From: Stenotrophomonas sp. ATCM1_4
Lineage (GTDB): Bacteria > Pseudomonadota > Gammaproteobacteria > Xanthomonadales > Xanthomonadaceae
NCBI RefSeq assembly: GCF_004348115.1
Contig: NZ_QPFB01000001.1
Span: 2,930,028 to 2,994,027 of the forward strand
Direction: 5' to 3'
DNA: 64,000 bases
A program made the position numbers and the translations under genes. This document shows, piece after piece, positions 13,386-31,820 of the stretch. Numbering within the stretch: position 1 is the stretch's first letter; each line of letters opens with the position of its first letter. The notes beneath the pieces were generated by a model. That model saw nothing but the letters and a program-made list of their open reading frames with translations, ran no database searches and had not been told where the DNA came from.

Positions 13386-14603
13386 TCAGCCAATGGCGTT
13401 GGTCAGGTCGTACAGCGGCACCAGTACCGCGATGATCACCACGCCCACCACCGAGGCGAGCAGCAGGGTGATCACCGGCACCAGCGCGGCGAGCATGCGG
13501 TCGATGCTGCGGGCGGTTTCCACGTCGAAGGTGTCGGCGGTCCTGAGCAGCATGCTTTCCAGCGTGCCGGACTCCTCGCCCACCTGGATCATCTGCAGCG
13601 CCAGCCGCGGGAAGCGGCCGTTGCGCGACAGCGCGCCGGACAAGCCGGCACCGTTCTTCACCGCTTCGGCGGCCTCGGCCACGTCGCCGGCCAGGGCGCG
13701 GTTGCCCAGCACGTTGCGGGCGATGCCCAGCCCGGCCAGCAAGGGCACGCCGTTGCGCAGCAGCGTGCCCAGCGTGCGGCTGAGCCGAGCGGTCTCCAGC
13801 CGCGCCACCAGCGGCCCGACCACCGGCCGCTTCAGCAGCCAGGCATCGAAGGCCAGGCGGAACGCGGCATCACGGCGCTTGCGCTCCATCCACAGCAGCG
13901 CCAGCGCCGGCACCACGATGAACACGATCCAGCCCTGGCGCACCAACAGGCCGATCTCCAGCACCGCGCGGGTGAACCAGGGCAGGGTCACGTCCAGGCT
14001 TTCGTACATCTGCGCGAACTGCGGCACCACGTAGCCCAGCAGGAACAGCAGCGCGCCACCGACCACCACCAGCAGGATGGCCGGGTAGATCATCGCGTTG
14101 ATCACCCTGCCCTTCAGCTCCTGGCTGCGCTCCAGGTAATCGGCCAGGCGCTGCAGGGTTTCATGCAGGCTGCCGCCGGCTTCGCCGGCGCGCACCATGT
14201 TCACGTACAGCCGCGAGAACAGCCCATGCTGGCGTTCCAGCGCCTGCGACAGCGGGGCACCGCCACGCACGGTGTCGCGGATGTCGGCGATGACGCGGCG
14301 CGAACGCGCGTCCTCCGGCGCTTCCAGCAGGATGCCCAGCGCACGGTCCAAGGGCTGGCCGGCACCCAGCAGCGTGGCCAGCTGCTGGGTGAACTGCACC
14401 AGCATGGCGCCGGCGAACGGGCGTTGCCGCCACTGCTTCCAGCTGGCGCCCTCGAACGCCGAACCGGTCGCCAGCTTCGCCTCGACCGGCATGTGGCCCT
14501 GCTCCTGCAGGCGCGCGATCACGTCCGCATCGCTGGCCGCCTCCATCTGCCCGTCCAGCAGTTCGCCATGGGCATCCAGTGCCTTGTAGCGGTACAACGG
14601 CAT
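13386..14603 (-). CDS. xpsF: T2SS inner-membrane platform protein F
   Basis: A 405-residue polytopic protein with two repeated GspF domains and three membrane helices near residues 170-200, 220-245 and 375-400. Family motifs include FTQQLATLLGAGQPLDRAL in the first repeat and RTLGTLLRNGVPLLAGL in the second, plus the IQVGEESGTLESML block. It docks with the ATPase XpsE and XpsL. The gaps to xpsE (31 bases) and xpsG (29 bases) are the largest inside the operon. Confidence 0.95.
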   Translation of the reverse strand: MPLYRYKALDAHGELLDGQMEAASDADVIARLQEQGHMPVEAKLATGSAFEGASWKQWRQRPFAGAMLVQFTQQLATLLGAGQPLDRALGILLEAPEDARSRRVIADIRDTVRGGAPLSQALERQHGLFSRLYVNMVRAGEAGGSLHETLQRLADYLERSQELKGRVINAMIYPAILLVVVGGALLFLLGYVVPQFAQMYESLDVTLPWFTRAVLEIGLLVRQGWIVFIVVPALALLWMERKRRDAAFRLAFDAWLLKRPVVGPLVARLETARLSRTLGTLLRNGVPLLAGLGIARNVLGNRALAGDVAEAAEAVKNGAGLSGALSRNGRFPRLALQMIQVGEESGTLESMLLRTADTFDVETARSIDRMLAALVPVITLLLASVVGVVIIAVLVPLYDLTNAIG

Positions 14604-14634: not shown

Positions 14635-16362
14635 TCATGCGTCCTCCGTCACGCGCAGGACTTCTTCCAGCGTGGTCTGGCCACGCAGGGCCTTGATGAT
14701 GCCATCCTCGTACATGGTGCGCATGCCGGCGGCACGCGCGATCTGCTCGATCTCGCCCATCCCGGCCTTGCGCATCACCGCGTTGCGCAGCGCATCGTCC
14801 ATCACCAGGAATTCGACGATGGTGGTGCGGCCCTTGTAGCCGGTGGGCGCAACGGCCGATGGCTGCGGCCGGTACAGGTGGATCTGCCCATGCGGCTGGT
14901 AACGGCGCAGGTTGAAGCGTTCGATCTCCTCGGCCGAGGCCGGGTAGCGCTGTGCATGCGTGGGCTCCAGCCGGCGCACCAGGCGCTGGGCGAGGATGCC
15001 GTTGATGGTGGAGGTGAGCAGGTAGTCCTCCACGCCCATGTCGAGCAGGCGGGTGATGCCGCCGGCGGCGTTGTTGGTATGCAGCGTGGACAGCACCAGG
15101 TGGCCGGTGAGCGCGGACTGGATGGCGATGCGCGCGGTTTCCAGGTCGCGCATTTCGCCGATCATGATGATGTCCGGGTCCTGGCGGACGATGCCGCGCA
15201 GCGCGCTGGCGAAGTCCAGCCCGATCTGCGGCTTGGCCTGGATCTGGTTGATGCCTTCGAGCTGGTACTCGACCGGGTCCTCGACGGTGATGATCTTGAC
15301 CTTGTCGGTGTTGAGCTGGCTCAGCGCGGTGTACAGCGTGGTGGTCTTGCCCGAACCGGTCGGGCCGGTGACCAGCAGGATGCCATGCGGCTGCGCCAGC
15401 ACGCGGCTGAACTGTGGCATGAATGCATCGTCGAAGCCGAGCCGCTGGAAGTCGAACACCACCGCCTCGCGGTCGAGCAGGCGCATCACCACGCTCTCGC
15501 CATGCGCGGTGGGCATGGTGCTCACGCGCAGGTCCAGCTCCTTGCCCTGCACGCGCAGCATGATGCGGCCGTCCTGCGGCAGGCGGCGCTCGGCGATGTT
15601 GAGCTTGGCCATGATCTTGATGCGGCTGATCACCGCGGCGGTCAGGTTGACCGGCGGGCTTTCGCCATCGACCAGCACGCCGTCGACGCGGTAGCGCACC
15701 TTCAGCCGGTTCTCGAACGGCTCGACGTGGATGTCCGAGGCGCGCAGTTCCACCGCACGCTGGATCAGCAGGTTGACCAGGCGGATCACCGGCGCCTCGG
15801 AGGCCAGGTCGCGCAGGTGCTCGATGTCATCCAGCGGCGCGGCCTCGCCATCGGCCGACTCCAGGATGGTGCCCATCGCACTGCGGCCCTGCCCGTGCCA
15901 GCGCTCGATCACCTCGTCCACTTCACTGCGCAGGCCGACCACCGGGGCGATGTCGCAGCCGGTGGCAAGTCGCATCGCGTCGATGGCATAGCCGTCCTGC
16001 GGGTCGGCCATCCACACGCGCACGCGGCCCTGCTGTTCGCCCAGCGGCAACACCAGGAACTGCTTGAGGAAGCGCAGCGGCACCGGCTCGGCCCCTTCCA
16101 CCAGCTCGGGCGGGTGCTCGGGGACGTCACGCGCGGCCAGCAGGCGCAGGCCCAGCACCCGCGCGCAGGCCTCGGCATGGTCGCGCTCGGACACCAGCCC
16201 CAGCCGCGCCAGCAGCACCAGCAGGTCGCCGCCGGACTCGCGCTGCAACTGCCGCGCACGCTGCAGGTCGGCGTCCTTCAGCCGGCCCTGCGCGAGCAGC
16301 TCCTGGACGATGCGTTCGGCAGGCGTGGCCGCAACATTGGCGTCATGGACTACCGCGTTCAC
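14635..16362 (-). CDS. xpsE: T2SS ATPase E
   Basis: A 575-residue cytoplasmic ATPase that powers pseudopilus assembly. An N1E-type region (about residues 15-160) binds XpsL. The Walker A motif GPTGSGKT is at 333-340, followed by the Asp box ITVEDPVEYQLEGINQ, Walker B (DPDIIMIGEMRD) and the His box (GHLVLSTLHTN). The tetracysteine zinc segment that most GspE proteins have after RLVRR-L is missing: the stretch to GYKGRTTIVEFL contains no Cys. The GTG at 16362 is chosen because AGGAGGAG lies 4-6 bases upstream; the longer frame to 16539 lacks this. First gene of the operon. Confidence 0.95.
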   Translation of the reverse strand: MNAVVHDANVAATPAERIVQELLAQGRLKDADLQRARQLQRESGGDLLVLLARLGLVSERDHAEACARVLGLRLLAARDVPEHPPELVEGAEPVPLRFLKQFLVLPLGEQQGRVRVWMADPQDGYAIDAMRLATGCDIAPVVGLRSEVDEVIERWHGQGRSAMGTILESADGEAAPLDDIEHLRDLASEAPVIRLVNLLIQRAVELRASDIHVEPFENRLKVRYRVDGVLVDGESPPVNLTAAVISRIKIMAKLNIAERRLPQDGRIMLRVQGKELDLRVSTMPTAHGESVVMRLLDREAVVFDFQRLGFDDAFMPQFSRVLAQPHGILLVTGPTGSGKTTTLYTALSQLNTDKVKIITVEDPVEYQLEGINQIQAKPQIGLDFASALRGIVRQDPDIIMIGEMRDLETARIAIQSALTGHLVLSTLHTNNAAGGITRLLDMGVEDYLLTSTINGILAQRLVRRLEPTHAQRYPASAEEIERFNLRRYQPHGQIHLYRPQPSAVAPTGYKGRTTIVEFLVMDDALRNAVMRKAGMGEIEQIARAAGMRTMYEDGIIKALRGQTTLEEVLRVTEDA

Positions 16363-16498
16363 GCACTCCTCCTCTGTTGACCGGACTTTAGCAGCTCGCC
16401 GCGTCGTTCCATACGCATGAACAGGCGTAATTCCCGCTTCCAGCGTGATTGGCATCCACGTCAGCGCGATTACGCCGGCCCGCCCACCCGGCATGGCC
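16363..16498 (-). promoter_or_regulatory. Promoter region of the T2SS operon
   Basis: The gap between the protease terminator and xpsE. A possible -10 (TAAAGT, minus) lies at 16385-16390; its -35 is poor. A perfect 8-base inverted repeat GGCGTAAT (16424-16431) / ATTACGCC (16469-16476) lies upstream, with a related GCGTGATT between. It could be an operator of an activator. The Shine-Dalgarno AGGAGGAG sits at about 16366-16373. Confidence 0.4.
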
Positions 16499-16529
16499 AA
16501 AAAAAAAGAACCCCGGCAAGCCGGGGTTC
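16499..16529 (-). terminator. Rho-independent terminator of the protease gene
   Basis: GAACCCCGGC (16508-16517) pairs with GCCGGGGTTC (16520-16529). On the minus strand the stem is followed by nine T (16499-16507). It lies 23 bases past the protease stop and separates protease from T2SS transcription. Confidence 0.9.
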
Positions 16530-16551
16530 CAAGGACCACAGGAGGAAACGC

Positions 16552-18423
16552 TTACTGGCGCGCGACCAGGCTCACGCCGCTGAAGCTGCCCGCACCGACC
16601 AGCTTGACGTAGTAGGTGCCGGCCTTCGGGGCGGTGAAGCGAATGGTCTCGCTGTTGCCCGGGCGGGTGGAGCTGGCATCGGCCGCGCTGGCCGACGGCT
16701 CCTTGTCGAAGCTGGCGTACAGCGAGACGTTGCCGCTGCCACCGTAGCTCATGAAGGTCAGCACCTTGCCGGCCTCGGCCTGGAAGCTGTACAGCACCTC
16801 GTTGCCACTGTTGCCGGCCAGGCCGGTCACCGCGACCTTGTTGACCAGCGGCGTGGCCACCGGGCCGCATTCCTCCACGGCCGGGTCGCACGGCGGCGTG
16901 GTTGCCTTGAGCAGGGCCGCCTCGATGTTGAGGATGCCGGCGCCGATCGGCGTGGACGCCGGGATGCTCACCGGGAACGGCTTGACCGTGGAGGTCAGCA
17001 GGTCACGCATCTGCGTCCAGGTCAGCGGCGTGTCGACCACGCTCTGCACCATCGCCACCGCGGCGGCCACGTGCGGCGACGCCATCGAGGTACCCACCAT
17101 GCCCAGCGGCGCCCAGTCCGCGGTCGGCCCCTGCGTGCCTTCGTTGATCACCTGGAAGATCCAGCCGTTGTTGTTCTGCTCGGCGTTGCCGCCCGGCGCG
17201 GACAGGTCCACGCGCGGCCCGTAGTTGGAGTAGTACGTGCGCCCGCCGTTGAAACCGGTGGCGCCCACCGAGATCACGTTGTTGCACGAGGACATCGTGT
17301 AGCTGCCGGCATTGGCGTTGTCGTTGCCCGCGGCCACCACGATGATGCTGCCGAGGCTGATCGCCTCGTCGATGGCGTCCTGGTAGATGGTCGGACAGCT
17401 CGACGGCGCACCGCTGCCCAGGCTCATGTTGATGACTTCCGCCGGGTTCGGGTTGGCCGGCAGGCCCGGCACGGTACCGCCGGCCGCCCAGATGATGCCG
17501 TCGGAGATGTCGCTGCCGAAGCCGCCGCAGGAACCGAGCACGCGCACCGGCATCACCTTGGCCTTGAACGCCAGGCCGGCCAGGTTGACGCCGTTGTTGG
17601 TCTCCTGCGCGACGGTGCCGGCGACATGGCTGCCATGCCAGGAACTGACGTCGGCCGCGTGCGGGTCGTTGGTCGCCCAGCCGGTGCAGTAGTTCTGCTC
17701 GACCCAGTCACCGATGTCCCAGCCGCCGGCGACGCGGTCATCGCTGTCGCGGCGCGAGACGCGCTTGTCGCTGATCATGTCGTAGCCGGGAATCACGTTG
17801 TTCTGCAGATCCGGGTTGCCCTGCGCGATGCCGGTGTCGATCACCGCCACCACCACGCCCTCGCCCTGCGAGATGTCCCAGGCCTGGGTGGCATTCACGC
17901 CGCTCTGGGCGTTGTAGAAGTTCCACTGCGCCGAGGTCTGCGGGTCGTTGGGCGCGAAGTTCGGGCTCACCTGGGTTGCCAGGCGCTGGTACATCCGGTC
18001 GATTTCCACCCGCTCCACCGCGGGATTGGCCTTCAGCTCGCGGATGAAGTTGGCCGCTTCCTGGCCGTCCAGCTCACGCGAGGCCTTCACCACCGCCCAG
18101 CCCGGGCTGCCCATGCGGCGCAGCAGCGCGGCACTGGCGGCCGGACGTGCGGCCGACTTGGCCGAAGCGGCGGTCGCCCGGCTCAGCCCGGCGCGCGAGG
18201 CCGCGGCATTAATGCCCCGGTTGGCCACGCCTGAATCACGCAGCTCGCTGCTGCCGGCACGGTACTTGACGATGAATCGGTATCCGCCTTCACCGGCGGC
18301 CGGCCCACTGTTGAGCGGGCGTGTCGGCAGGCTGCCGGTGTTGGCCGCCAATGCGGCCGGCACGCCCATCGAAACCATCAACACGACACCGGCAACTGCC
18401 ACTCCAAGCTTGGTCTTCTTCAT
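16552..18423 (-). CDS. Secreted subtilisin-like serine protease (S8)
   Basis: A 623-residue pre-pro-protease. The signal peptide is about residues 1-26 (MKKTKLGVAVAG ... VPAALA). An I9-like pro-region runs to about residue 150. The S8 domain has the complete triad: Asp196 in VAVIDTGI, His263 in WHGSHVAGT, Ser446 in GTSMASPH. Cys residues in YCTGW, GSCGG, SSCPT and SSCNN suggest disulfides. A C-terminal pre-peptidase (PPC) domain lies at about 540-623. Its length and domains match Stenotrophomonas StmPr-type extracellular proteases, which use the Xps T2SS; adjacency to xpsE fits that. Start 18423 was chosen for the signal peptide. Confidence 0.92.
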   Translation of the reverse strand: MKKTKLGVAVAGVVLMVSMGVPAALAANTGSLPTRPLNSGPAAGEGGYRFIVKYRAGSSELRDSGVANRGINAAASRAGLSRATAASAKSAARPAASAALLRRMGSPGWAVVKASRELDGQEAANFIRELKANPAVERVEIDRMYQRLATQVSPNFAPNDPQTSAQWNFYNAQSGVNATQAWDISQGEGVVVAVIDTGIAQGNPDLQNNVIPGYDMISDKRVSRRDSDDRVAGGWDIGDWVEQNYCTGWATNDPHAADVSSWHGSHVAGTVAQETNNGVNLAGLAFKAKVMPVRVLGSCGGFGSDISDGIIWAAGGTVPGLPANPNPAEVINMSLGSGAPSSCPTIYQDAIDEAISLGSIIVVAAGNDNANAGSYTMSSCNNVISVGATGFNGGRTYYSNYGPRVDLSAPGGNAEQNNNGWIFQVINEGTQGPTADWAPLGMVGTSMASPHVAAAVAMVQSVVDTPLTWTQMRDLLTSTVKPFPVSIPASTPIGAGILNIEAALLKATTPPCDPAVEECGPVATPLVNKVAVTGLAGNSGNEVLYSFQAEAGKVLTFMSYGGSGNVSLYASFDKEPSASAADASSTRPGNSETIRFTAPKAGTYYVKLVGAGSFSGVSLVARQ

Positions 18424-18543
18424 GTTCGATCTCTCGTCTGCTGGAACAGGGATGGAACTCCATTGCTGCATTGCCTTGCCTTCCCGACCCTCGCTCCACC
18501 GGCTGCGGGGGCAGCCGGCGGCGGGGCCGCGAACCTTGCTGCA

Positions 18544-18585: not shown

Positions 18586-21500
18586 CTACCAGCCGAAGCC
18601 GGCGCCCACGCCCACCGAGCTGTCATCGCTGCTGAAGGCACCGCCCAGGGTGACCGTGGCGCGATCGCTGATCGCACGCTGGTAGCCGATGGACAGGGCC
18701 GATTCACCGCTCTGGAAGCCCACGCCCACGCCCACGCGGTTCGGCGTGCGTACGCCGGCCGCGCTGGTGGCCATGTTCAACATCGCCGCGTTCATCGCGC
18801 CCTGGCGATCAATGCGGCGGTCGATATGCCGCAGGCGGTTGTCCATGTCGTTGCGCAGGCCGGTGAAGCTGTCGGTGAGGCTGCCGAACTTGGTGTCGGT
18901 ATAGCTGTTGGCCGAGGCGACGCCCTGGTCCAGCTGTCCCTTGTTGACCGCGTCGGTGGCCTGGGTGCCGGCAGCGACATTGGTGATCTGCCGCTCCTGC
19001 CCGGCACTGCCCACCGACACGGTGTTGGCACGGTCGGCCACCGAACCCTGGCCCAACGCCACGGCCCCCTGCGCGGTGACGCTCGCGCCCTGCCCCACCG
19101 CGGTCCCGGAGGCGGCACTCACGCTGGCGCTTTCACCCACCGCAACGGCATTGGTGGCCGCCGCGGTGATGTGGGTGTTGGCCCCCACCGCGGTGCTGCC
19201 GTCGGCGTCAACGCGGGCGTTGCTGCCCAGCGCGGTGTCGTTCGGGCCATGCGCGTAGCTGCTGTTGCCCACCGCGGTGCCGGCGGTGTTGTTGGCCTTG
19301 GCCTGGTCGCCCAGTGCGACGCCGCCGGTACTGGCGGTGGTGTCGACGCTGGCGGTACGGGGACCATTGCCATTGCCATTGCCATTACCGTTGCCGTTGC
19401 CGTTGCCATTTCCATGGCCGTTCCCGTTCCCGTTCCCGTTCCCGTTGCCATTCCCTGCCAGGCGGCCGTTGATCGAGGTGACCTGGTTGTCCAGTGCCGT
19501 CAACGCCGCACCGACGTTGTTGTAGCTGCTGCCCTGGATCACGTAGGTCGGCGCGACGAACACGCCCTGCATGCCGATGCCGGCACCACCGCCGAGGAAG
19601 CTGGCCATGTTGCCCAGCGACTGGAACAGCTGGCCCCCGTTGACCGCCTGCATGCTGCCGGCGGCGATGTTGCCGGCGGCCACATTGTCCAGCGTGGTTC
19701 CCTTCACGCCGGCCAGGGTCATCGTGTCGCGGCTGCTGTCATCGTAGGTCACGGCGTTGGCGGTGACGTTCTCCACCGTGCCGATGCGGCCATCGATGTC
19801 GTCCACGCGCGTCTCCACCGCACCGACCCGCTGGTTGGTGACGTACAACTGGCCACCGGTCACCGCATCGGTGCTGTTCTGGGCGACGCGGCCGTTGGCG
19901 ACGTTGACGATGCGGCGCGTGGCCGGGCCGTCGGTACCATTGCCACCGCCCACCGAGACCACGTTTGCCTCGGTCGCACGCGAACCGGCACCCAGCGCAA
20001 CCGAGTTGGCGCCGGACACCCCGGCACCGGCGCCGATGGCGACGCTGTTGACCCCGTTGCTGGCGAACGCGCCATAGCCGATCGCCACGCCGTTGGTCGC
20101 GGTGATCGAAGTCTGCCGGCCCAGCGCGGTGCTGTTGGTGCCACGCGCCGATGCATCCGCGCCGACCGCCGTTGCACCGGTGGCGTTGGCGGTGCTGGCC
20201 GTGCCCAACGCCGTGGAACGGTTGGCGCTGGCGTTGGCACCCGAACCGGCGGCCAGTGCGTCCGTGCCGCCCGCGCTCGCCGCCGCACTGCCCGTGGCCT
20301 GGAAGTACTTGCTGGTCTGGCCGGCGCTGGTTGCCACCGCATCCAACTGCGACTTGTTCACCGCATCGGTGGCCTCGGTACCGGCGGCCACGTTGGTGAT
20401 CTGGCGCTCATTGCCGGCACTGCCCACCGACACCGTACCGGCGCGGTCGGCAACCGAGCCGGCACCCAGGGCCACCGAACCGGTGCCACTGGCCTCCGCC
20501 CCCATGCCCAGCGCGGTGCTCTGCTGGCCCACCGCCCAGGCATTGGCGCCCACCGCGGTGGCGTCATCGCCGAAGGCCCAGCTGGCGCTGCCGATCGCCA
20601 CCGCATTGGTCGAACCAATGCCGAACAGGCCGAAGCCGGTCTCGGCACCATCACCGATCGCCAGGCTGCCTTCGCCCAGTGCCGAGGCATTGCGGCCCAC
20701 GGCCACGTTGCCATCCTCGTAGGCCGCCGCATTGAAGCCCACCGCGGTCGTGCCCGCACCTTCGGCGTAGCTCTGCGAACCGGTCGCGGTGCTGTAGTCA
20801 CCCAGGGCGTTGGCAACCGCGCCATTGGCGGTGGACTGGTCGCCACGTGCCAACGCGCCCACGCCGCTCGCCGTGGCGGCGAAGCCTTCGGCATTGGCGC
20901 TGGCACCCAGCGCGGTGCCGCCGACGCCGGCGCTGGTCGCACCGGTATCCACCGGCACGCCACCGACGTTGATCAGCGCATCGCCGTTCTCGTCCACCGC
21001 GTTGCCGCCGACGGCCACCGCACCCGGGCCCATCGCCTGCGCGTTCTGGCCGAACGCGGCGGCGTTCTGGCCGCTGGCCAGGGCGTTCATGCCGACCGCG
21101 GTCGCCCCGTCGGACAGGGCATTGGCACCACTGCCGTAAGCCGAGGCACCGTTGCCGTAGGCATTGGCCGCCTCGCCGGCGGCCACCGCGTTATCACCCT
21201 CGACGTAGGCACCGACATCACTGTCGGCACTGCCGCTGGCCTTGAAGTACTTCGCGGTTATCTGCCCTTCCTCGGCAACGGCGGCCACGTCGTCCAGCTG
21301 TGCCTTGTTCACCGCGTCGGTGTCCTCGGTGCCGGCGGCCACGTTGGTGATCTGCCGTTCGCTGCCGACATCGCCCACCGACACCGTGTTGTCGCGGCCC
21401 GCCACCGATCCGGCACCCAGCGCCACCGAGTTCTCGGCGCCCGCCTGCGCGCCCGCACCCACGGCGGTGCTGCGCTGGTCGAAGGCCCAGGCATTGGCAC

Positions 21501-24500
21501 CCACCGCGGTAGCGTCATCGCCGAAGGCCCAGCTGCCGCTGCCGATCGCCACTGCGTTGGCCGCACCGATGCCGAACAGGCCGAAGCCGGTCTCGGCACC
21601 ATCACCGATCGCCAGGCTGCCTTCACCCAGTGCCGAGGCATTGCGGCCCACGGCCACGTTGCCGTCCTCGTAGGCCGCCGCATTGAAGCCCACTGCGGTC
21701 GTGCCCGCGCCTTCGGCATAGCTCTGCGAACCGGTCGCGGTGCTGTAGTCGCCCAGGGCGTTGGCAACCGCGCCATTGGCGGTGGACTGGTCGCCACGTG
21801 CCAACGCGCCCACGCCGCTTGCCGTGGCGGCGAAGCCTTCGGCATTGGCGCTGGCACCCAGCGCGGTGCCACCGACGCCGGCGCTGGTCGCGCCGGTATC
21901 CACCGGCACGCCACCGACGTTGATCAGCGCATCGCCGTTCTCGTCCACCGCGTTGCCACCGACGGCCACCGCACCCGGGCCCATCGCCTGCGCGTTCTGG
22001 CCGAACGCGGCGGCGTTCTGGCCGCTGGCCAGGGCGTTCATGCCGACCGCGGTCGCCCCGTCGGACAGGGCATTGGCACCGCTGCCATAGGCCGAGGCGC
22101 CGTTGCCGTAGGCATTGGCCGCCTCGCCGGCGGCCACCGCGTTATCACCCTCGACATAGGCACCGACATCACTGTCGGCACTGCCACTGGCCTTGAAGTA
22201 CTTGCTGGTGGTGTCGGCCACAGCGGCCACTTCGTCCAGCTGCGCCTTGTTCACCGCATCGGTGTCCTCGGTGCCGGCGGCCACGTTGGTGATCTGCCGC
22301 TCGTTGCCGACATCGCCCACCGAGACCGTGTTGTCACGCTCGGCCAGCGAATCGGCACCCAGCGCCACGCTGTTTGCTCCCTGCGCGATGGCCGCGTTGC
22401 CCAGCGCCGTGCTGTTGGTACCCGGCGACCACGCACCACCGCCCACGGCGGTGGAGTAGTCACCCGAGGCCTCGGCCGGCAGCAGGCCGAACAGCGACCC
22501 GCCCACCGCGACGCTGTTGTAGCCGGTCGCCAGCGCGCCCTGGCCGGCGGCCAGGCTGTCTTCGCCACTGGCCACCGCATCGGCGCCAACGGCCACATCG
22601 TTGCTGCCGCTGGCCGTACTGCTGTTGCCCAGCGCGGTGCTGTTGAAGCCCGCCGCCTGTGCATAGCCACCCACCGCCGTGGCGTAGCTGGCCGTGGCCT
22701 GCGCGGCGAAGCCCTGCGCGCTGGCCGTGGTGCCACTGGCCACGCTCTCCGCGCCCAGTGCGGTCGCCCCGCTGCCTTCGGCGCTGCTGTAGTAGCCCAC
22801 CGCGGTGGACTCGATGCCATCGGCTTCGGCCAGCACGCCCATCGCCGTGGCGCCATCCCCCGAGGCCGCCGAGGCCGCACCGAAGGCCGCGCTCTGCTCG
22901 CCGCTGGCCACGCTTTCCGAACCCACCGCCGTGGCGTACTCGCCGCTGGCGATCACGCTGTCACCGGCGGCGAAGCTGCTGCCACCACTGGCGATGCTGT
23001 TGCTGCCCACCGCCGTGGCGTTGTCGCCATCGACGAAGTTGGCGAAGCCGAACGCGCTGCTGTTCTGCCCATCGACCTGGTTGAAGTTGCCCACCGCCGA
23101 GCTGTTGGTGCCGTTGGCGGTGTTCACGTAGCCCACCGCACTGGCGTAGTCGCCCGCCGCGCTGTTGTAGCTGCCCACCGCGATGCTCTCCGCACCGCTG
23201 GCCACCGAGCCCACGCCCGCCGCCGTGGCACCGTCACCGCTGGCCACCGCGTCATCGCTGCCGTCACCGGCACCGTTGGCCTTGAAGTAGCGGCCCGCCA
23301 GCAGCGCGCCTTCGGCCGCTGCATTGAGCTGGTCCACGTTCACCGCGTCGGTGCCTTCGGTACCGGCGGCGACGTTGGTGATCTGCCGGTCGATGGCGGC
23401 GTGGGTCACGCCGGCCGCATCGGTCCATTCCTGCGCGGCACCCACCGACACCGTGTTTGCCCGGTCGGCCAGCGAACCGGCGCCCAACACCACGCTGTTC
23501 TGCGCGTCCTTGGTGGTCCACGCATTGGAGCCCAGCACGGTTGCGTTCTGCGCCTGCGCGTAGCTGTTGTAACCGACGACAGTGGCGCCGTCCTCGGTCG
23601 CCCATGCCTCGGCACCGAGCGCGGTGGTCTGCTTGCCCTCGGTTTCGCTGTAGGCATCCTGCCCGGCCAGTGCATTGGTGCCGACCGCCACGCCCATTTC
23701 ACCGGTGGCGGCGTTGTTGCCAACTGCCACGCCACCCTGCCCGGCGCGCGTCTGCACGCCGAAGGCGGCACCGGCGATGTCGGCGATGGCGTTCTGGCCC
23801 ACCGCGGTGGCGACCTCGGCGGCCTGCGCCTGGGTGCCCACGGCGGTACCGAAGAACGTCGCATATGCGCCCGAACCGACCGACACCGCCTGCCAGGCAT
23901 CGGCGGTCGCGCCGAAGCCGATGGCCGTGGACTCACGCCCGGTGGCCCATGCCGCGTTGCCGATGGCGGTCGCGGCCAGGCCCGAGGCCTGCGCGTCCGC
24001 GCCGATGGCCGCGGCGAACAGGCCATTGGCGCTGCTGTCCGCGCCGATGGCCAGCTGCCCGCCCTGCGCGGTGCTGGCATTGGTACCGATGGCGATGTTG
24101 TCCTGCGCCGATGCATTGGCGTTCAAGCCCACGGCGATCGCGCCCTCGCCGGTCGCCAGCGCGCTGGTACCCAGCGCGGTCGCGTTGTCGGCCAGTGCAT
24201 TGGCACCGTTGCCGTAGGCCGAAGCACCATTGCCGATGGCGTTGCTGGCCTCGCCGGCCGCCGTCGCGTTCTGGCCCTCGGCCAGCGCACCGGCATCGCT
24301 GTCGTCGCCACCGGTCGCCTTGAAGTACTTGTCGGTGTTGGAGGCGACGGCGGCGACATCGTCGAGCTGCGCCTTGTTCACCGCATCGGTGGCCTCGGTG
24401 CCGGCCGCCACGTGGGTGACCTGCCGTTCGGCACCATCGCTGCCGACCGACACGGTGTCGTCGCGATCGGCTACCGAGTTGGCACCCAGCGCGACGCTGT

Positions 24501-26937
24501 TCACGCCACTGGCCTCGGCCAGGAAGCCCACGGCGGTGGCGTTCTCGGCATTGGCGTAGCTGCCGCCGCCGATCGCGGTGGCGCCGTCACCGGCGGCCGC
24601 GGCCAACGTGCCCAGCGTGGTCGCCTGCACCCCTTCGGCGGTCGCCGCGGTGCCCACGGCGGTCGCGCCCAGGTCAGTCGCCTGCGCGCCGTTGCCCAAG
24701 GCGGTGGATGCAACGCCACTGGCCTCGGTCGCCTGGGTGATGAAGCCCGGGAAGCCGTACAGCAGGTCGCCGATGTCGGCCACGCCGCCCACCGCGGTGC
24801 TGTAGTCGCCGCTGCTCACCGCCGCGAAGCCCACCGCGGTGGCGTAGGTGGCCGTGGATTCACTGCCATAGCCCAGCGCCGTGCTGCGTGCGCCGCTGGC
24901 ATCGGCAAAGCTGCCGTTGGCGGTGGAATAGGCCCCGCCAGCGCTGCTGCGGTAGCCGGTGGTGGTGGATTGCGCGCCCTCGGCCGTCGCGCCGGCACCA
25001 TTCGCCGTCGAGAACACCCCGGTCGCCACCGCGCCGGCGCCAAAGGCCGATGCGCCCACGCCGGACGCCGTGGTGGTCTGGTCCAGCACGACGTTGCCGT
25101 CGGCATCCTCGAAGTACAGGCGGCCACCGTTGGCGGTGCTGGAATCCCCTTCGGCCACCGCGTTGTAACCGGTGGACGTGGCGTACTGGCCGGTGGCGAC
25201 CGCGCCGCTGCCGATGGCCGACGCCCCCAGCGCCAGTGCCGAACTGGAAGAACCCAGCGCGGTGGCGTAGTCCCCCTGCGCCATCGCGTTGCTGCCCGAT
25301 GCAGTCGCCTCCTCGCCTTCGGCGATGGCGCCGTTCTCGCCGGTGGCAACGAAGTACTTGCTGTTGGCGGTGGCTTCGTCCAGCTGCGCCTTGTTCACCG
25401 CATCGGTGTCCTCGGTGCCGGCGGCCACGTTGGTGATCTGCCGCTCGTTGCCGACATCGCCCACCGAGACGGTGTTGTCACGCTCGGCCAGCGAGTCGGC
25501 ACCCAGCGCCACGCTGTTTGCTCCCTGCGCGATGGCCGCGTTGCCCAGCGCCGTGCTGTTGGTACCCGGCGACCACGCACCACCGCCCACGGCGGTGGAG
25601 TAGTCACCCGAGGCCTCGGCCGGCAGCAGGCCGAACAGCGACCCGCCCACCGCGACGCTGTTGTAGCCGGTCGCCAGCGCGCCCTGGCCGGCGGCCAGGC
25701 TGTCTTCGCCACTGGCCACCGCATCGGCGCCAACGGCCACATCGTTGCTGCCGCTGGCCGTGCTGCTGTTGCCCAGCGCGGTGCTGTTGAAGCCCGCCGC
25801 CTGTGCATAGCCACCCACCGCCGTGGCGTAGCTGGCCGTGGCCTGCGCGGCGAAGCCCTGCGCGCTGGCCGTGGTGCCACTGGCCACGCTCTCCGCGCCC
25901 AGTGCGGTCGCCCCGCTGCCTTCGGCGCTGCTGTAGTAGCCCACCGCGGTGGACTCGATGCCATCGGCTTCGGCCAGCACGCCCACCGCCGTGGCGCCAT
26001 CCCCCGAGGCCGCCGAGGCCGCACCGAAGGCCGCGCTCTGCTCGCCGCTGGCCACGCTTTCCGAACCCACCGCCGTGGCGTACTCGCCGCTGGCGATCAC
26101 GCTGTCACCGGCGGCGAAGCTGCTGCCACCACTGGCGATGCTGTTGCTGCCCACCGCCGTGGCGTTGTCGCCATCGACGAAGTTGGCGAAGCCGAACGCG
26201 CTGCTGTTCTGCCCATCGACCTGGTTGAAGTTGCCCACCGCCGAGCTGTTGGTGCCGTTGGCGGTGTTCACGTAGCCCACCGCACTGGCGTAGTCGCCCG
26301 CCGCGCTGTTGTAGCTGCCCACCGCGATGCTCTCCGCACCGCTGGCCACCGAGCCCACGCCTGCCGCCGTGGCACCGTCGCCGCTGGCCACCGCGTCATC
26401 GCTGCCGTCACCGGCACCGTTGGCCTTGAAGTAGCGCTGCACGTTCTCGCCGGCGGCCGCCACGGCATCCAGCTGCGCCTTGTTCACCGCATCGGTGGCC
26501 TCGGTGCCGGCGGCCACGTGGGTGACCTGCCGCTCGCTGCCCGACGTGCCCACCGAAATGCTGTTGGCGCGGTCGGCGACCGAGCCGGCACCCAGTGCCA
26601 CGCTGCCGTCGGCCGAGGCGACCGTGCCGGCGCCAATGGCCACCGCGTTGCTGCCCGTGGCCTGCGCGTCACCGGACGTCGCGCAATCCACCAGGGTCGC
26701 GCTGCCCAGCACCATGCACTGCCCGCTGCCGCCCACTTCGACCGATTGCGCCTGTACGGCGGTAACCGTTCCTGCGCCCAGTCCCAGGGCGATGGCCAGG
26801 GACAAGGCCTGCAGCCGATGGCTGCCGGCGCGTCGCTCATCGACGACGACGCCCGACGCGTTGGAAGTGGCCAACTCCGATGCCACGACCAGCTGCCCCA
26901 ATGCCTTGTTCCACACCTTGCGATAAATCCGATTCAT
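18586..26937 (-). CDS. Giant trimeric autotransporter adhesin (YadA/Hia type, type Vc)
   Basis: A 2783-residue surface adhesin. It starts with an extended signal peptide region (MNRIYRKVWNKALGQLVVA), a hydrophobic core at 43-61 and a likely cut after VQA63. Most of the passenger is YadA-like head made of 14-16-residue S-x-A-x-G-x-x-A repeats, interrupted by neck motifs of the form ERQITNVAAGTE-TDAVNKAQLD (eight near-consensus copies plus two divergent ones). A short stalk and the 4-strand YadA anchor (SIGYQRAISDRATVTLGG, ending in Trp) follow. The ATG at 26937 has AGGAG 8 bases upstream; the GTG at 26943 is too close to it. It would trimerise and mediate attachment or biofilm growth; the ligand is unknown. 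Contains large internal duplications and a Gly-Asn linker. Confidence 0.96.
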   Translation of the reverse strand: MNRIYRKVWNKALGQLVVASELATSNASGVVVDERRAGSHRLQALSLAIALGLGAGTVTAVQAQSVEVGGSGQCMVLGSATLVDCATSGDAQATGSNAVAIGAGTVASADGSVALGAGSVADRANSISVGTSGSERQVTHVAAGTEATDAVNKAQLDAVAAAGENVQRYFKANGAGDGSDDAVASGDGATAAGVGSVASGAESIAVGSYNSAAGDYASAVGYVNTANGTNSSAVGNFNQVDGQNSSAFGFANFVDGDNATAVGSNSIASGGSSFAAGDSVIASGEYATAVGSESVASGEQSAAFGAASAASGDGATAVGVLAEADGIESTAVGYYSSAEGSGATALGAESVASGTTASAQGFAAQATASYATAVGGYAQAAGFNSTALGNSSTASGSNDVAVGADAVASGEDSLAAGQGALATGYNSVAVGGSLFGLLPAEASGDYSTAVGGGAWSPGTNSTALGNAAIAQGANSVALGADSLAERDNTVSVGDVGNERQITNVAAGTEDTDAVNKAQLDEATANSKYFVATGENGAIAEGEEATASGSNAMAQGDYATALGSSSSALALGASAIGSGAVATGQYATSTGYNAVAEGDSSTANGGRLYFEDADGNVVLDQTTTASGVGASAFGAGAVATGVFSTANGAGATAEGAQSTTTGYRSSAGGAYSTANGSFADASGARSTALGYGSESTATYATAVGFAAVSSGDYSTAVGGVADIGDLLYGFPGFITQATEASGVASTALGNGAQATDLGATAVGTAATAEGVQATTLGTLAAAAGDGATAIGGGSYANAENATAVGFLAEASGVNSVALGANSVADRDDTVSVGSDGAERQVTHVAAGTEATDAVNKAQLDDVAAVASNTDKYFKATGGDDSDAGALAEGQNATAAGEASNAIGNGASAYGNGANALADNATALGTSALATGEGAIAVGLNANASAQDNIAIGTNASTAQGGQLAIGADSSANGLFAAAIGADAQASGLAATAIGNAAWATGRESTAIGFGATADAWQAVSVGSGAYATFFGTAVGTQAQAAEVATAVGQNAIADIAGAAFGVQTRAGQGGVAVGNNAATGEMGVAVGTNALAGQDAYSETEGKQTTALGAEAWATEDGATVVGYNSYAQAQNATVLGSNAWTTKDAQNSVVLGAGSLADRANTVSVGAAQEWTDAAGVTHAAIDRQITNVAAGTEGTDAVNVDQLNAAAEGALLAGRYFKANGAGDGSDDAVASGDGATAAGVGSVASGAESIAVGSYNSAAGDYASAVGYVNTANGTNSSAVGNFNQVDGQNSSAFGFANFVDGDNATAVGSNSIASGGSSFAAGDSVIASGEYATAVGSESVASGEQSAAFGAASAASGDGATAMGVLAEADGIESTAVGYYSSAEGSGATALGAESVASGTTASAQGFAAQATASYATAVGGYAQAAGFNSTALGNSSTASGSNDVAVGADAVASGEDSLAAGQGALATGYNSVAVGGSLFGLLPAEASGDYSTAVGGGAWSPGTNSTALGNAAIAQGANSVALGADSLAERDNTVSVGDVGNERQITNVAAGTEDTDAVNKAQLDEVAAVADTTSKYFKASGSADSDVGAYVEGDNAVAAGEAANAYGNGASAYGSGANALSDGATAVGMNALASGQNAAAFGQNAQAMGPGAVAVGGNAVDENGDALINVGGVPVDTGATSAGVGGTALGASANAEGFAATASGVGALARGDQSTANGAVANALGDYSTATGSQSYAEGAGTTAVGFNAAAYEDGNVAVGRNASALGEGSLAIGDGAETGFGLFGIGAANAVAIGSGSWAFGDDATAVGANAWAFDQRSTAVGAGAQAGAENSVALGAGSVAGRDNTVSVGDVGSERQITNVAAGTEDTDAVNKAQLDDVAAVAEEGQITAKYFKASGSADSDVGAYVEGDNAVAAGEAANAYGNGASAYGSGANALSDGATAVGMNALASGQNAAAFGQNAQAMGPGAVAVGGNAVDENGDALINVGGVPVDTGATSAGVGGTALGASANAEGFAATASGVGALARGDQSTANGAVANALGDYSTATGSQSYAEGAGTTAVGFNAAAYEDGNVAVGRNASALGEGSLAIGDGAETGFGLFGIGSTNAVAIGSASWAFGDDATAVGANAWAVGQQSTALGMGAEASGTGSVALGAGSVADRAGTVSVGSAGNERQITNVAAGTEATDAVNKSQLDAVATSAGQTSKYFQATGSAAASAGGTDALAAGSGANASANRSTALGTASTANATGATAVGADASARGTNSTALGRQTSITATNGVAIGYGAFASNGVNSVAIGAGAGVSGANSVALGAGSRATEANVVSVGGGNGTDGPATRRIVNVANGRVAQNSTDAVTGGQLYVTNQRVGAVETRVDDIDGRIGTVENVTANAVTYDDSSRDTMTLAGVKGTTLDNVAAGNIAAGSMQAVNGGQLFQSLGNMASFLGGGAGIGMQGVFVAPTYVIQGSSYNNVGAALTALDNQVTSINGRLAGNGNGNGNGNGNGHGNGNGNGNGNGNGNGNGPRTASVDTTASTGGVALGDQAKANNTAGTAVGNSSYAHGPNDTALGSNARVDADGSTAVGANTHITAAATNAVAVGESASVSAASGTAVGQGASVTAQGAVALGQGSVADRANTVSVGSAGQERQITNVAAGTQATDAVNKGQLDQGVASANSYTDTKFGSLTDSFTGLRNDMDNRLRHIDRRIDRQGAMNAAMLNMATSAAGVRTPNRVGVGVGFQSGESALSIGYQRAISDRATVTLGGAFSSDDSSVGVGAGFGW
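19364..19453 (-). repeat. Hexanucleotide repeat coding Gly-Asn linker in the adhesin
   Basis: Fifteen consecutive 6-base units of the form CCRTTN on the plus strand (runs of CCATTG, CCGTTG and CCGTTC, with one CCATGG) encode alternating Gly-Asn with one His. The unit is a multiple of three, so gain or loss of units changes linker length without a frameshift. It lies between the last stalk-like section and a final short head segment before the anchor. Confidence 0.9.
20560..21247 (-). repeat. Tandem duplication B, copy 2 (adhesin head)
   Basis: Codes for a block beginning KYFKASGSADSDVGAYVEG that is almost identical to the block at 21511-22198, 951 bases (317 codons) away. After about 230 residues the two copies diverge (FGIGSTNAVAIGS against FGIGAANAVAIGS and beyond). 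Endpoints are approximate, judged by eye. Confidence 0.85.
21511..22198 (-). repeat. Tandem duplication B, copy 1 (adhesin head)
   Basis: First (N-terminal) copy of the 317-codon-period tandem unit; see the copy at 20560-21247. Codes for YVEGDNAVAAGEAANAYG and the following head repeats, including the loop VGGNAVDENGDALINVGG. Confidence 0.85.
22240..23290 (-). repeat. Dispersed duplication A, copy 2 (adhesin head)
   Basis: About 350 codons from RYFKANGAGDGSDDAVASG to the next neck motif, nearly identical at base level to 25384-26434, exactly 3144 bases (1048 codons) away. A Val-to-Met change (ATAVGV to ATAMGV) is the clearest protein difference; a few silent changes are visible. Endpoints are by eye. 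Confidence 0.88.
25384..26434 (-). repeat. Dispersed duplication A, copy 1 (adhesin head)
   Basis: N-terminal copy of the ~1.05-kb duplicated head segment; partner at 22240-23290. Starts right after the first neck motif and ends at the second, so the duplicated unit respects head-neck module borders. Confidence 0.88.
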
Positions 26938-27090
26938 CGTCACAGCTCCTCAAGTGGGGTGGTTTATTCCGCTTGCAGAAACGGCCATCGCTGGACTGAA
27001 CGCGTCCAACGATCCCCCTGAGGTGTTGTGGATCCTGTCTCCCGGACAACCGGGCACGCGAGGCTCACGCCTGCCGTGGCGGCTCTCGCC

Positions 27091-27631: not shown

Positions 27632-30600
27632 TCAGCCACACCACACGCGGGCATTGCGGAACATCCGCAGCCACGGCGAGTCCTCGCCCCAACTGCGCGG
27701 CGCCCAGCTCAGGTTGACCGTGCGCGGGGTGCGTTCCGGGTGCGGCATCAGGATGGTGACGCGGCCATCGCTGGTGGTCAGGCCGGTGATGCCGTCCGGC
27801 GAACCGTTCGGGTTCAGCGGGTACTGCTCGGCCACCCGGCCATCGCCGTCGACGTAACGCAACGCGATGTTGGCGGCGGCCTGGTCCACGGCGTTGTCGA
27901 ACTCGGCGCGGCCTTCACCATGCGCCACGGCCACCGGCAGGCGCGAGCCGGCCATGCCACGCAGCAGGATCGACGGCGACTCCTGCACTTCCAGCAACGC
28001 GGTGCGGGCTTCGAACTGCTCGCTGCGGTTGCGCTGGAACACCGGCCAGTGCTCGGCACCGGGGATGATGGCCTTGAGCTGGCTGATCATCTGGCAGCCG
28101 TTGCACACGCCCAGCGCGAAGGTGTCCGGACGCGCGAAGAAGGCGGCGAATGCCTCGCGCAGCGCCGGGCGCTCCAGGATCGAGGTCGCCCAGCCACGGC
28201 CGGCACCGAGCACGTCGCCGTAGCTGAAGCCGCCACAGGCAGCCAGGCCACGGAAATCGGACAGCTGCACGCGGCCTTCGATCAGGTCGCTCATGTGCAC
28301 GTCGTAGGCGTCAAAGCCCACGCGCTCGAAGATGTTGGCCATCTCGATCTGGCCGTTGACGCCCTGCTCGCGCAGGATCGCGACCTTCGGCCGCGCACCG
28401 CTGGCGATGAACGGCGCGGCCACGTCCTCGGCCGGATCGAAGCTCAGCTTCGGCTTCAGGCCCGGCGCGTTGAAGTTGCGGGCCAGCGCGCGCTCCTGGT
28501 CGGCCGCTTCCGGGTTGTCACGCAGCTTCTGCATGGCGTGGGTCACCGACCACCAGGCGTCGAACAGCTCTTCCCAACGCCATTCCACCAGGCTCTCGCC
28601 GCCCAGCTGCACGCGCACCACCGGTGCGGTGCTCGGGCGCGCGATGCGCTGCGCGCATTCGGTCAACGCATGCCGCTCGACCAGGTCGGCGAACGCGGCG
28701 CGGTCCTCCTTGGCGATCTGCACCACGGCGCCGAGTTCTTCGTTGAACAGGCTGCGGAACGGGTCATCGCCCCAGGCATCGAGCACGATGTCCAGGCCCA
28801 GGCGCGAGGCGAAGGACATCTCGCACAGCGCGGCGAACGCACCACCGTCGCTGCGGTCGTGGTAGGCCAGCAGCAGACCGGCCTCACGTGCATCGCGGAT
28901 CAGTTCGAAGAACCCACGCAGGCGCTCGGGGTCGTCAAGGTCCGGCACTTCACCGGCAAACGCCGGCAAGGCACTGTGGTCGGCCTGGGTCTGGGCCAGG
29001 ATCGAACCACCCAGACGCTGCTTGCCCGCACCCAGGCCGATCAGCCACAACTCACTTTCGGCTTCACGGTCGAGCAGCGGGGTCAGCTGCTGGCGCGCAT
29101 CGACCACCGGCGCGAACGCCGAGATCACCAGCGACACCGGCGACACCGATTTCTCGGCCTTGCCGTCAGCCTGCCACTGCGCCTGCATCGACAGCGAGTC
29201 CTTGCCCACCGGGATGCTGATGTCCAGCTGCGGGCACAGCTCCATGCCCACCGCCTTGACCGCGTCGTACAGCAGCGCGTCTTCGCCGTCGTGGCCGCAG
29301 GCGGCCATCCAGTTGGCCGACAGCTTGACCGTATCCAGCGACAGCACCGGTGCGGCACACAGGTTGGTGATCGCTTCGCCCACCGCCATGCGCGCCGAGG
29401 CGGCGGCGTTGAGCAGGGCCAGCGGGGTACGCTCGCCCAGCGACATCGCTTCACCGGCGTAGGTGTCGAAACCGGCCAGGGTGATGGCGACATCGGCCAT
29501 CGGCAGCTGCCACGGGCCGATCATCTGCTCGCGTGCGGTCAGGCCGCCGACGCTGCGGTCACCGATGGTGACCAGGAAGCTCTTGGAAGCAACGGTCGGA
29601 TGCGCCAACACGCGCAGGCCGGCTTCATGCAGGTTGATGCCGGCGGTCTTGAGCTGCGGCCAACGCGGTGCAGCCGGATGCGTGGTGTCGCGATGCATCT
29701 TCGGCGCCTTGCCGAACAGCACGTCCATCGGCAGATCAATCGGTGCATCGGCCGGAATGTTGCCCGGCGTAGCGCCGTAAGCGACAACCAGGCGTTCCTC
29801 GGCGGTGGCGATGCCGACCGCGGCGAACGGACAACGCTCGCGTGCGCAGATGTCGGTGAACTCGGCCAGGCGCCCGGCCGGGATGCCCAGCACGTAGCGT
29901 TCCTGCGATTCGTTGCACCACAGTTCCAGCGGCGACAGCGACGGATCGTCGGTGGGCACCTTGCCCATATCGATCACGCCACCCACGCCGGAGTCGTGCA
30001 GCAGTTCCGGGATGGCATTGGACAGGCCACCGGCGCCGACGTCATGGAAGAACTTGATCGGGTTGTCGGTGCCCATGGCCACGCAACGGTCGATCACTTC
30101 CTGGCAGCGGCGCTCCATTTCCGGGTTGTCGCGCTGCACGCTGGCGAAATCCAGGTCCTCGGCGCTCTCGCCGGAGGCCACCGACGAGGCGGCACCGCCG
30201 CCCAGGCCGATCAGCATCGCCGGGCCGCCGAGCACGATGACGATGTCACCGTCCTGCAGGCGCAGCTTGTCCACCTGCACGCGGTCGATCGCGCCCAGGC
30301 CACCGGCCAGCATGATCGGCTTGTCATAGGCGCGGGTGATCTCGCCTTCCGGCAGTTCGAAGCTGCGGAAGTAACCCAGCAGGTTCGGACGGCCGAACTC
30401 GTTGTTGAACGCGGCGCCGCCGAGCGGGCCGTCGAGCATGATGTCCAGCGCCGGTGCCATGCGCGGGTTCAGCGCGCGCGGCGCTTCCCACGGCTGCGGC
30501 AGGGTCGGGATGCGCAGGTGCGAGACCGAGAAACCGGTCAGGCCCGCCTTGGGCTTGCCGCCGCGGCCGGTCGCGCCTTCGTCGCGGATTTCGCCACCGG

Positions 30601-31513
30601 CACCGGTCGATGCGCCCGGGAACGGGGCGATCGCGGTCGGATGGTTGTGGGTTTCCACCTTGATCTGGAAGGCGCTGGGCACCACCGCTTCGCTGCGGTA
30701 CTTGCCGCTGGCCGGGTCCGGGCGGTAACGCGCGGCCGGCTCACCCTCGATCACCGCGGCGTTGTCGCTGTACGCGCTCAACGTGTGCTGCGGGGTCTGC
30801 TGGTGGGTGTTCTTGATCATCTTGAACAGCGAGCGGTCCTGCGCCTGCCCATCGATGGTCCAGCTGGCGTTGAAGATCTTGTGGCGGCAGTGCTCGGAAT
30901 TGGCCTGCGCGAACATCATCAGCTCGACGTCGGACGGATCGCGGCCCAGCTCGGTGTAGCGCTGGCGCAGGTACTCGATCTCGTCCTCGGCCAGGGCCAG
31001 GCCCAGGCGCTTGTTGGCGCTTTCCAGGTCGGCCAGCGCGATGCGCTCCAGCTGGCCGCGGGCCAGGCTGGTGAACAGTGCCTGCGCCTGCCCGATGTCG
31101 GTCAGCAGCGACTGCGTCATCGGGTCGTGCAGCAGCTTGGCCACCGCGGCCTGCTGGGCCGGGTCGGCCGGCCAGCCGCTCAGGTCGATGCGGGTACCGC
31201 GCTCCACGCGCTGGATCGCCAGGCCGGCGCCACGCACCAGCTCGGTGGCCTTGCTCGACCACGGCGACAGCGTGCCCAGGCGGGGCACCACGTAGCGCGA
31301 CACCGCGCCGTCGGCGCGTTCGGCCGCCTGCGGCTGGCCCTGCACGATGCGGCCCAGCGTGGTCAGGTCGACCGCGCCGGCATCGGCAGCTTGGGTGAAA
31401 TAGACATGCCAGGCACCGGTGATACGCAGGTCGGCGGCGATGGACTGCAGGCGGGATTCAAGACGTTCGCGACGGAACGGCGAAAGGGCAGCTGCGCCCT
31501 CGAGGACGATCAT
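27632..31513 (-). CDS. purL: Phosphoribosylformylglycinamidine synthase (large, single-chain)
   Basis: A 1293-residue cytoplasmic enzyme of purine synthesis: FGAR + glutamine + ATP gives FGAM. Order: an N-terminal PurS-like domain ([18 protein letters not shown]), a linker with DIEYLRQ-type helix ([18 protein letters not shown]), two AIRS-like ATP domains ([42 protein letters not shown] region; GNGGAS-type loops), and a C-terminal glutaminase with nucleophile Cys in [13 protein letters not shown] and HGEGRAEF. The start at 31513 is the family start; the in-frame ATG at 31549 overlaps a TACAAT -10-like box (31548-31553). Monocistronic, ended by a double terminator. Confidence 0.97.
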
Positions 31514-31820
31514 GTCCGGGAAACCATGGTTAGGAATCGGGCCCGGCATTGTACCGGAGTCCGCCGCCGCTCCCCTGATTTCCGGTTCAGCGCGGGCAGG
31601 CGCTGGCCGGGCGCCAGCGGCAATCGCCCGGTGTGGAGGGAAAGCGGGGTTACGGTTCCCCCCTCGCTATGCTCATTCAGCCGGTGGCGCTGCCCCGGCC
31701 CGTCCGCCCGCCTTACCGCTCGCCAACGGAACTACCCCAACCCGGCCCCGGCCAGGCGCTTGATGCGCGGGCCATGCCGAAGGCATGCCCCGCGCCGGCC
31801 ACCCCCAAAGGAGATTGACC
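31514..31820. promoter_or_regulatory. Divergent region purL / chitinase
   Basis: 307 bases. For purL, TACAAT on the minus strand at 31548-31553 is a plausible -10, 29 bases before the start. For the chitinase the leader carries a strong hairpin (31765-31795) and the Shine-Dalgarno AAAGGAGA (31807-31814). A weak -10 (TATGCT) lies near 31668. No clear -35 was found for either gene. Confidence 0.45.
31765..31795 (+). promoter_or_regulatory. Stable hairpin in the chitinase mRNA leader
   Basis: GCGCGGGCCATGCC (31765-31778) pairs with GGCATGCCCCGCGC (31782-31795) around a GAA loop: 14 positions with one mismatch. It ends 11 bases before the Shine-Dalgarno of the chitinase. There is no T-run, so mRNA protection or a protein site is more likely than termination. 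Confidence 0.6.

Follow-up and report, generated by a model that had tools for sequence, protein, structure and literature searches.

Probable recent copying of a head-plus-neck cassette within a predicted XadA-type adhesin gene of Stenotrophomonas sp. ATCM1_4

In the parts of the literature that we drew on, adhesin genes built from repeated modules have been described as changing by recombination. For BadA of Bartonella henselae, domain duplications and length variation between strains are reported and recombination is suggested as the cause (PMC8859334, in the part consulted), while for adhesin genes of the Brucellaceae recombination as well as duplication have been described (PMC7688925, likewise consulted in part). 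For the XadA homologues of Xanthomonas, the consulted part of PMC12448352 places an S8 protease after the adhesin gene and the xps cluster downstream. A search by title and start of abstract, in which the broadest topic was sampled in small part, found no literature on module copying in Stenotrophomonas adhesins.

The window analysed here is a stretch of 64,000 nucleotides from Stenotrophomonas sp. ATCM1_4, and handles beginning with G denote genomes. On its minus strand lies an open reading frame at 18586-26943. With the GTG at 26943 as start it comprises 2,785 codons, but an ATG at 26937 is the start suggested by the ESPR signal peptide (MNRIYRK...). The product is a predicted XadA-type (YadA-like) trimeric autotransporter adhesin (type Vc), a type that was assigned from domains, gene neighbours and literature passages on XadA loci. 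Pfam found 22 YadA_head and 9 YadA_stalk stretches, which represent the heads and the stalk or neck parts, and the extended signal peptide was recognized as ESPR (PF13018, E = 1.7e-11). YadA_anchor (PF03895) was not listed in the whole-protein Pfam scan at E 0.001, and was found when the last 132 residues were scanned alone (E = 8.3e-10, 39 bits versus a cut-off of 22.7). This membrane anchor region (18586-18927, minus strand) is conserved across species, with DNA identities of 80-87% in the 12 best matches listed and of 77-78% to G003 and G094.

The gene upstream of the adhesin gene (27632-31549, minus strand) we take to be purL, a name given from its sequence; its best named match is purL of Stenotrophomonas sp. 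Iso1 (94%). Downstream of the adhesin gene lie an S8 subtilase (16552-18471), GspE (14635-16539) and a T2SSF protein (13386-14603). The S8 peptidase and the type II secretion proteins were identified by Pfam and GspE also scored above its NCBIfam cut-off, so that the order of an XadA-type locus is present. A plus-strand frame at 18826-27021 (2,731 amino acids, nearly the length of the adhesin) was also considered as a gene; it is probably a shadow frame, because the Pfam domains sit on the minus-strand reading. Of the genes compared, the one most similar to the second head of the adhesin (24361-25377, minus strand, residues 523-861) comes from Luteimonas (L080), with a DNA identity of about 70%, a hint of either an import or a gap in sampling.

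A preliminary description of this DNA had reported two near-identical segments of 1.05 kb at an exact spacing of 3144 bases in this gene. This was borne out, as the 1,051-base segments differ at 6 positions and their offset is exactly 3,144 bases. The full copies at 25374-26436 and 22230-23292 are 1,063 bp each, and when they were aligned and the differences counted, as had been proposed, there were again 6, 5 of them synonymous (5 silent differences in 354 codons) and the sixth a Val/Met exchange. As the gene is on the minus strand, 25374-26436 is the N-terminal copy (residues ~170-524) and 22230-23292 the interior copy (residues ~1218-1572). Beyond the copies, the flanks compared at the same offset share ~20-45% identity per 100 bases, with the exception of 71% in the 100 bases that contain the upstream neck. 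The pair is not in tandem, as two unlike heads lie between the copies.

The copied block opens with the first head residue (RYF), which follows the preceding neck's QL at a distance of 11 residues, and it stops about 2 residues beyond the QL in the closing neck. The earlier statement that the segments begin and end at necks is therefore correct for the end, which lies just past the closing neck, and incorrect for the start. Both closing necks are inside the block: that of the N-terminal copy is found at 25381-25482 (minus strand, residues 488-521; RDNTVSVGDVGNERQITNVAAGTEDTDAVNKAQL) and that of the interior copy at 22237-22338 (minus strand), with the same protein sequence and one silent DNA difference. 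The linkers, on the other hand, are outside the block. They are 11 residues each and unlike, DAVAAAGENVQ before the N-terminal copy (26437-26469, minus strand, codons 159-169) and NAAAEGALLAG before the interior copy (23293-23325, minus strand), with all 11 codons but one differing, and the sequences beyond the blocks are unlike too. Since identity runs from the head start, which follows the linker, to just beyond the closing neck, we conclude that a head-plus-neck cassette was copied, in agreement with the earlier view that a whole head-neck module had been involved. A crossover between the two copies would shorten or lengthen the protein by 1,048 residues in frame; this consequence had been pointed out before and its arithmetic is right (3,144/3 = 1,048 codons). 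The gene also contains an older duplicated cassette that the preliminary description had passed over (21293-22203 and 20342-21252, both minus strand), with 92.4% identity over 911 bases at an offset of 951, and this pair spans head start to neck as well.

To date the copying, substitution rates between the copies (dN 0.0013, dS 0.019) were set against those of the older pair (dN 0.042, dS 0.20) and against the divergence from G004, whose purL protein was the most similar (97%) among the 40 relatives ranked. Between our genome and G004, dS was 0.154 for purL, 0.396 for GspF, 0.453 for GspE, 0.476 for the S8 protease and 0.57 for the anchor (113 codons). The dS of 0.019 between the copies versus 0.154-0.57 for these genes upholds the recent duplication that had been proposed; if rates are alike, the split from G004 would be 8 to 30 times older than the copying. 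In the same comparison the distance to G004 is far smaller for purL than for the S8 protease, GspE, GspF and the anchor (dS 0.40-0.57), a pattern that an exchange of purL would produce.

We also searched for the source of the copied head. Our own genome yielded 461 first-look candidates, of which 40 were scored; among these 40 the two copies were the only near-full-length matches, so that no donor was found elsewhere in the genome at this depth. Some match to the copied segment was present in 89 of 91 genomes of the genus, our own included. Among the matches listed outside our genome (4-5 candidates scored per genome), the longest was 818 bases at 75% in G024; stretches of 300-450 bases at the head start reached 83%, and 87% was reached by short neck matches only. 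No close donor was thus seen among the matches listed for the 91 genomes, nor when the segment was compared in 200-base tiles with 78 other genes. This tile comparison did indicate a mosaic. Tiles up to base 320 were nearest to heads in G077, G104, G095, G075 and G004 (82-84%), tiles 361 to 800 to G024 (74-78%) and tiles 721 to 1040 to heads of, for instance, G006, G099, G011 and G096 (82-84%). The mosaic head was not seen in the other genomes compared, and both copies have the same make-up; most likely, therefore, it formed once and was then copied.

Evidence on the direction of copying came from the linkers. Fifteen heads of other genomes start like the copied head (identity of at least 0.78 over 110 residues). 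They are preceded by the exact linker of the interior copy in 5 cases, by a linker one residue off in 4, by one of looser likeness in 3 and by other sequences in 3, all from G094, while the linker of the N-terminal copy was found before none of the 15. With the interior linker, exact or one residue off, before 9/15 related heads and the N-terminal linker before 0/15, the interior copy is the likelier donor. In AU tests on 318 bases, trees that kept each copy with the heads occupying the corresponding position in G075, G077, G095 and G104 were rejected (p 0.0008 and 0.001). When both copies were held with either position group, p was ~0.06 each way, so that the direction was not settled by the tree. 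All these p values are weakened by the fact that the groups were named after the head tree had been seen; in addition, G075 and G077 contribute the second of two tandem genes.

To see how common such copying is, the genus was compared with one genome per species, using the longest neck-bearing frame of each genome. Of 91 genomes 81 were counted; G016, G041, G048, G049, G050, G074, G088, G098 and G100 were left out, as was G007, whose contig ends 1,067 bases past purL. A neck-bearing frame was present in 79/81 genomes, in 77 of them not cut by a contig end, and none was found in the 20 kb after purL in G012 (L120) and G020 (L139). In G020 the purL match is broken into three parts and includes one internal stop. 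G077 (L225, L221, L223) and G075 (L226, L222, L224) have two large neck-bearing adhesin genes after purL, of which the second was used. Among the 77 genes, adhesin lengths ranged from 1,209 to 3,138 residues and 21 were at 2,415-2,425, where short lengths may reflect broken genes, since G064 has several shorter neck-bearing frames at the locus and the D457 record (L112) has its gene split in two frames. Adhesin length differs between species by whole modules in places, and the genes of 2,730-2,732 residues in G021, G053 and G085 contain a 924-base tandem repeat. Internal blocks of at least 500 bases were found at 99% identity or more in 2 of the 77 genes (our own and G024), at 95% or more in 6, at 90% or more in 12 and at 80% or more in 25, counts that may be low because draft assemblies may lose recent repeats. 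The pair in G024 (L140) is 99.2% identical over 1,028 bases and covers adhesin residues 345-687 and 971-1313. The adhesin of our genome (2,785 residues) is nearly as long as that of G004 (2,784), although the heads are arranged differently. This speaks against easy length change of the kind anticipated in the preliminary description, possible though ongoing change may be, and suggests that copying may often replace rather than add a head.

A first tree comprised 30 heads of one broad type, drawn from 9 genomes. In it, supported groups of heads from the same genome were formed by 2 heads of our genome, 3 of G004, 2 each of G095, G104 and G024 and 3 of G003. The heads of G075 and G077 did not cluster by genome, and several heads grouped across species by type. 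A second tree with 18 heads of the copied type again grouped our two copies (99/97), and the G094 heads grouped too, while those of G075, G077, G095 and G104 were not grouped by genome. The presence of within-genome groups in some genomes and not in others indicates that recent copying has been repeated but is not universal. We then looked at the borders of 19 blocks (at least 90% identity, at least 500 bases) relative to a linker zone, which reaches from 4 residues before the QL end to 4 residues past the head start. Seven of 19 starts and 9 of 19 ends were in this zone, against an expectation of ~1.0 for each from sliding the blocks along the gene; in 20,000 draws the observed number was reached in a fraction of 5e-5 for starts and in none for ends. 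Borders outside the zone made up the other 12 starts and 10 ends, including both ends of all three G003 blocks. As several blocks come from one genome and conserved necks draw block ends, the excess of borders at linkers is suggestive, not proof.

Taken together, we favour a recent copy of one head-plus-neck cassette within the XadA-type adhesin gene, transferred by homologous recombination or gene conversion inside the gene with the interior copy as the likelier donor, and give this a probability of about 0.8. The exchange could have occurred within the gene or between sister chromosomes, with the conserved necks and head starts probably providing the homology. The interior cassette would have been donated to the N-terminal place, and the head resident there was probably overwritten. 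Judged from one genome, a possible though less probable account is an insertional duplication, whereby the cassette came in as an additional module and lengthened the adhesin. Whole-module additions do seem to occur in the genus, as the 924-base tandem repeat genes compared with the 21/77 at the common length suggest. The pair described here is not tandem, however, with its two unlike heads in between, the gene is as long as that of G004, and 6 of the 7 other genomes with typed heads, G024 being the exception, already have this broad type as their first typed head (for G075 and G077 the second tandem gene was typed). The copying might also be one instance of a cassette array, in which head-plus-neck units move whole between fixed linkers and overwrite each other, so that head content changes while module number and fibre length stay about constant. 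Identical heads behind unlike linkers and the excess of borders at linkers fit such an array, but the numerous borders away from linkers and the genes with an added module do not, and we consider it doubtful.

A separate import of both copies by horizontal transfer, from another strain or gene, is unlikely. Parts of the mosaic head resemble heads of different species, so that transfer may belong to the history of the head, but neither a close donor among the genus matches listed nor a further near-full-length copy among the 40 candidates scored of 461 in our genome was found, and a single origin followed by one copying step is more likely than the same mosaic having been imported twice. That a single copy was placed twice by the assembly is very unlikely, even though the repeat is longer than short reads. 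The copies differ at six positions and end at module borders, their linkers and neighbours are not the same, and the frame is open throughout; all this speaks against it, as does the like case in G024; moreover, assemblers more often merge or break such repeats. Least credible of all is an old duplication whose copies have remained similar because of selection at the protein level. The function of the head could be constrained, but the silent sites, almost as alike as the rest, contradict this reading, and for heads of the same type elsewhere, protein identity in the first 110 residues does not exceed 84%.

By sequence, the copied segment matched solved heads, namely 1p9h ('Invasin', presumably YadA; E 7.4e-16), 7o23 (BpaC; 2e-38) and 3s6l ('Hep_Hag family'; 4e-17), each match covering parts of the segment. 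Two antibody chains appeared in the same list (E 4e-5 and 2e-4), and little trust can therefore be placed in weak matches of a segment this repetitive.

Silent sites and the 77-gene comparison together indicate that the head modules of XadA-type adhesins undergo turnover through within-gene copying, and that mosaic heads, too, can be copied. They also pinpoint sites at which size or head switching could be sought, and call for caution with short-read assemblies of such adhesin genes. Domains and kinds of neighbours (S8 protease, type II secretion) are the same as for XadA of Xanthomonas, whereas the head content differs, and two XadA homologues adjoin there according to the consulted part of PMC12448352, while the other neck-bearing places of our genome, an assembly of 8 contigs, are far from the adhesin locus. 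With BadA, as far as the consulted part of PMC8859334 goes, the gene shares neck-delimited modules that are multiplied, deleted and reordered within the gene, and copying of such modules within one gene was found here. In that work it is the neck/stalk region that varies, an island carries badA pseudogenes and strains of one species are compared, whereas we compared head cassettes of one gene between species. Given the similar reshuffling described there for BadA, we regard the copied cassette as a new case of a known phenomenon.
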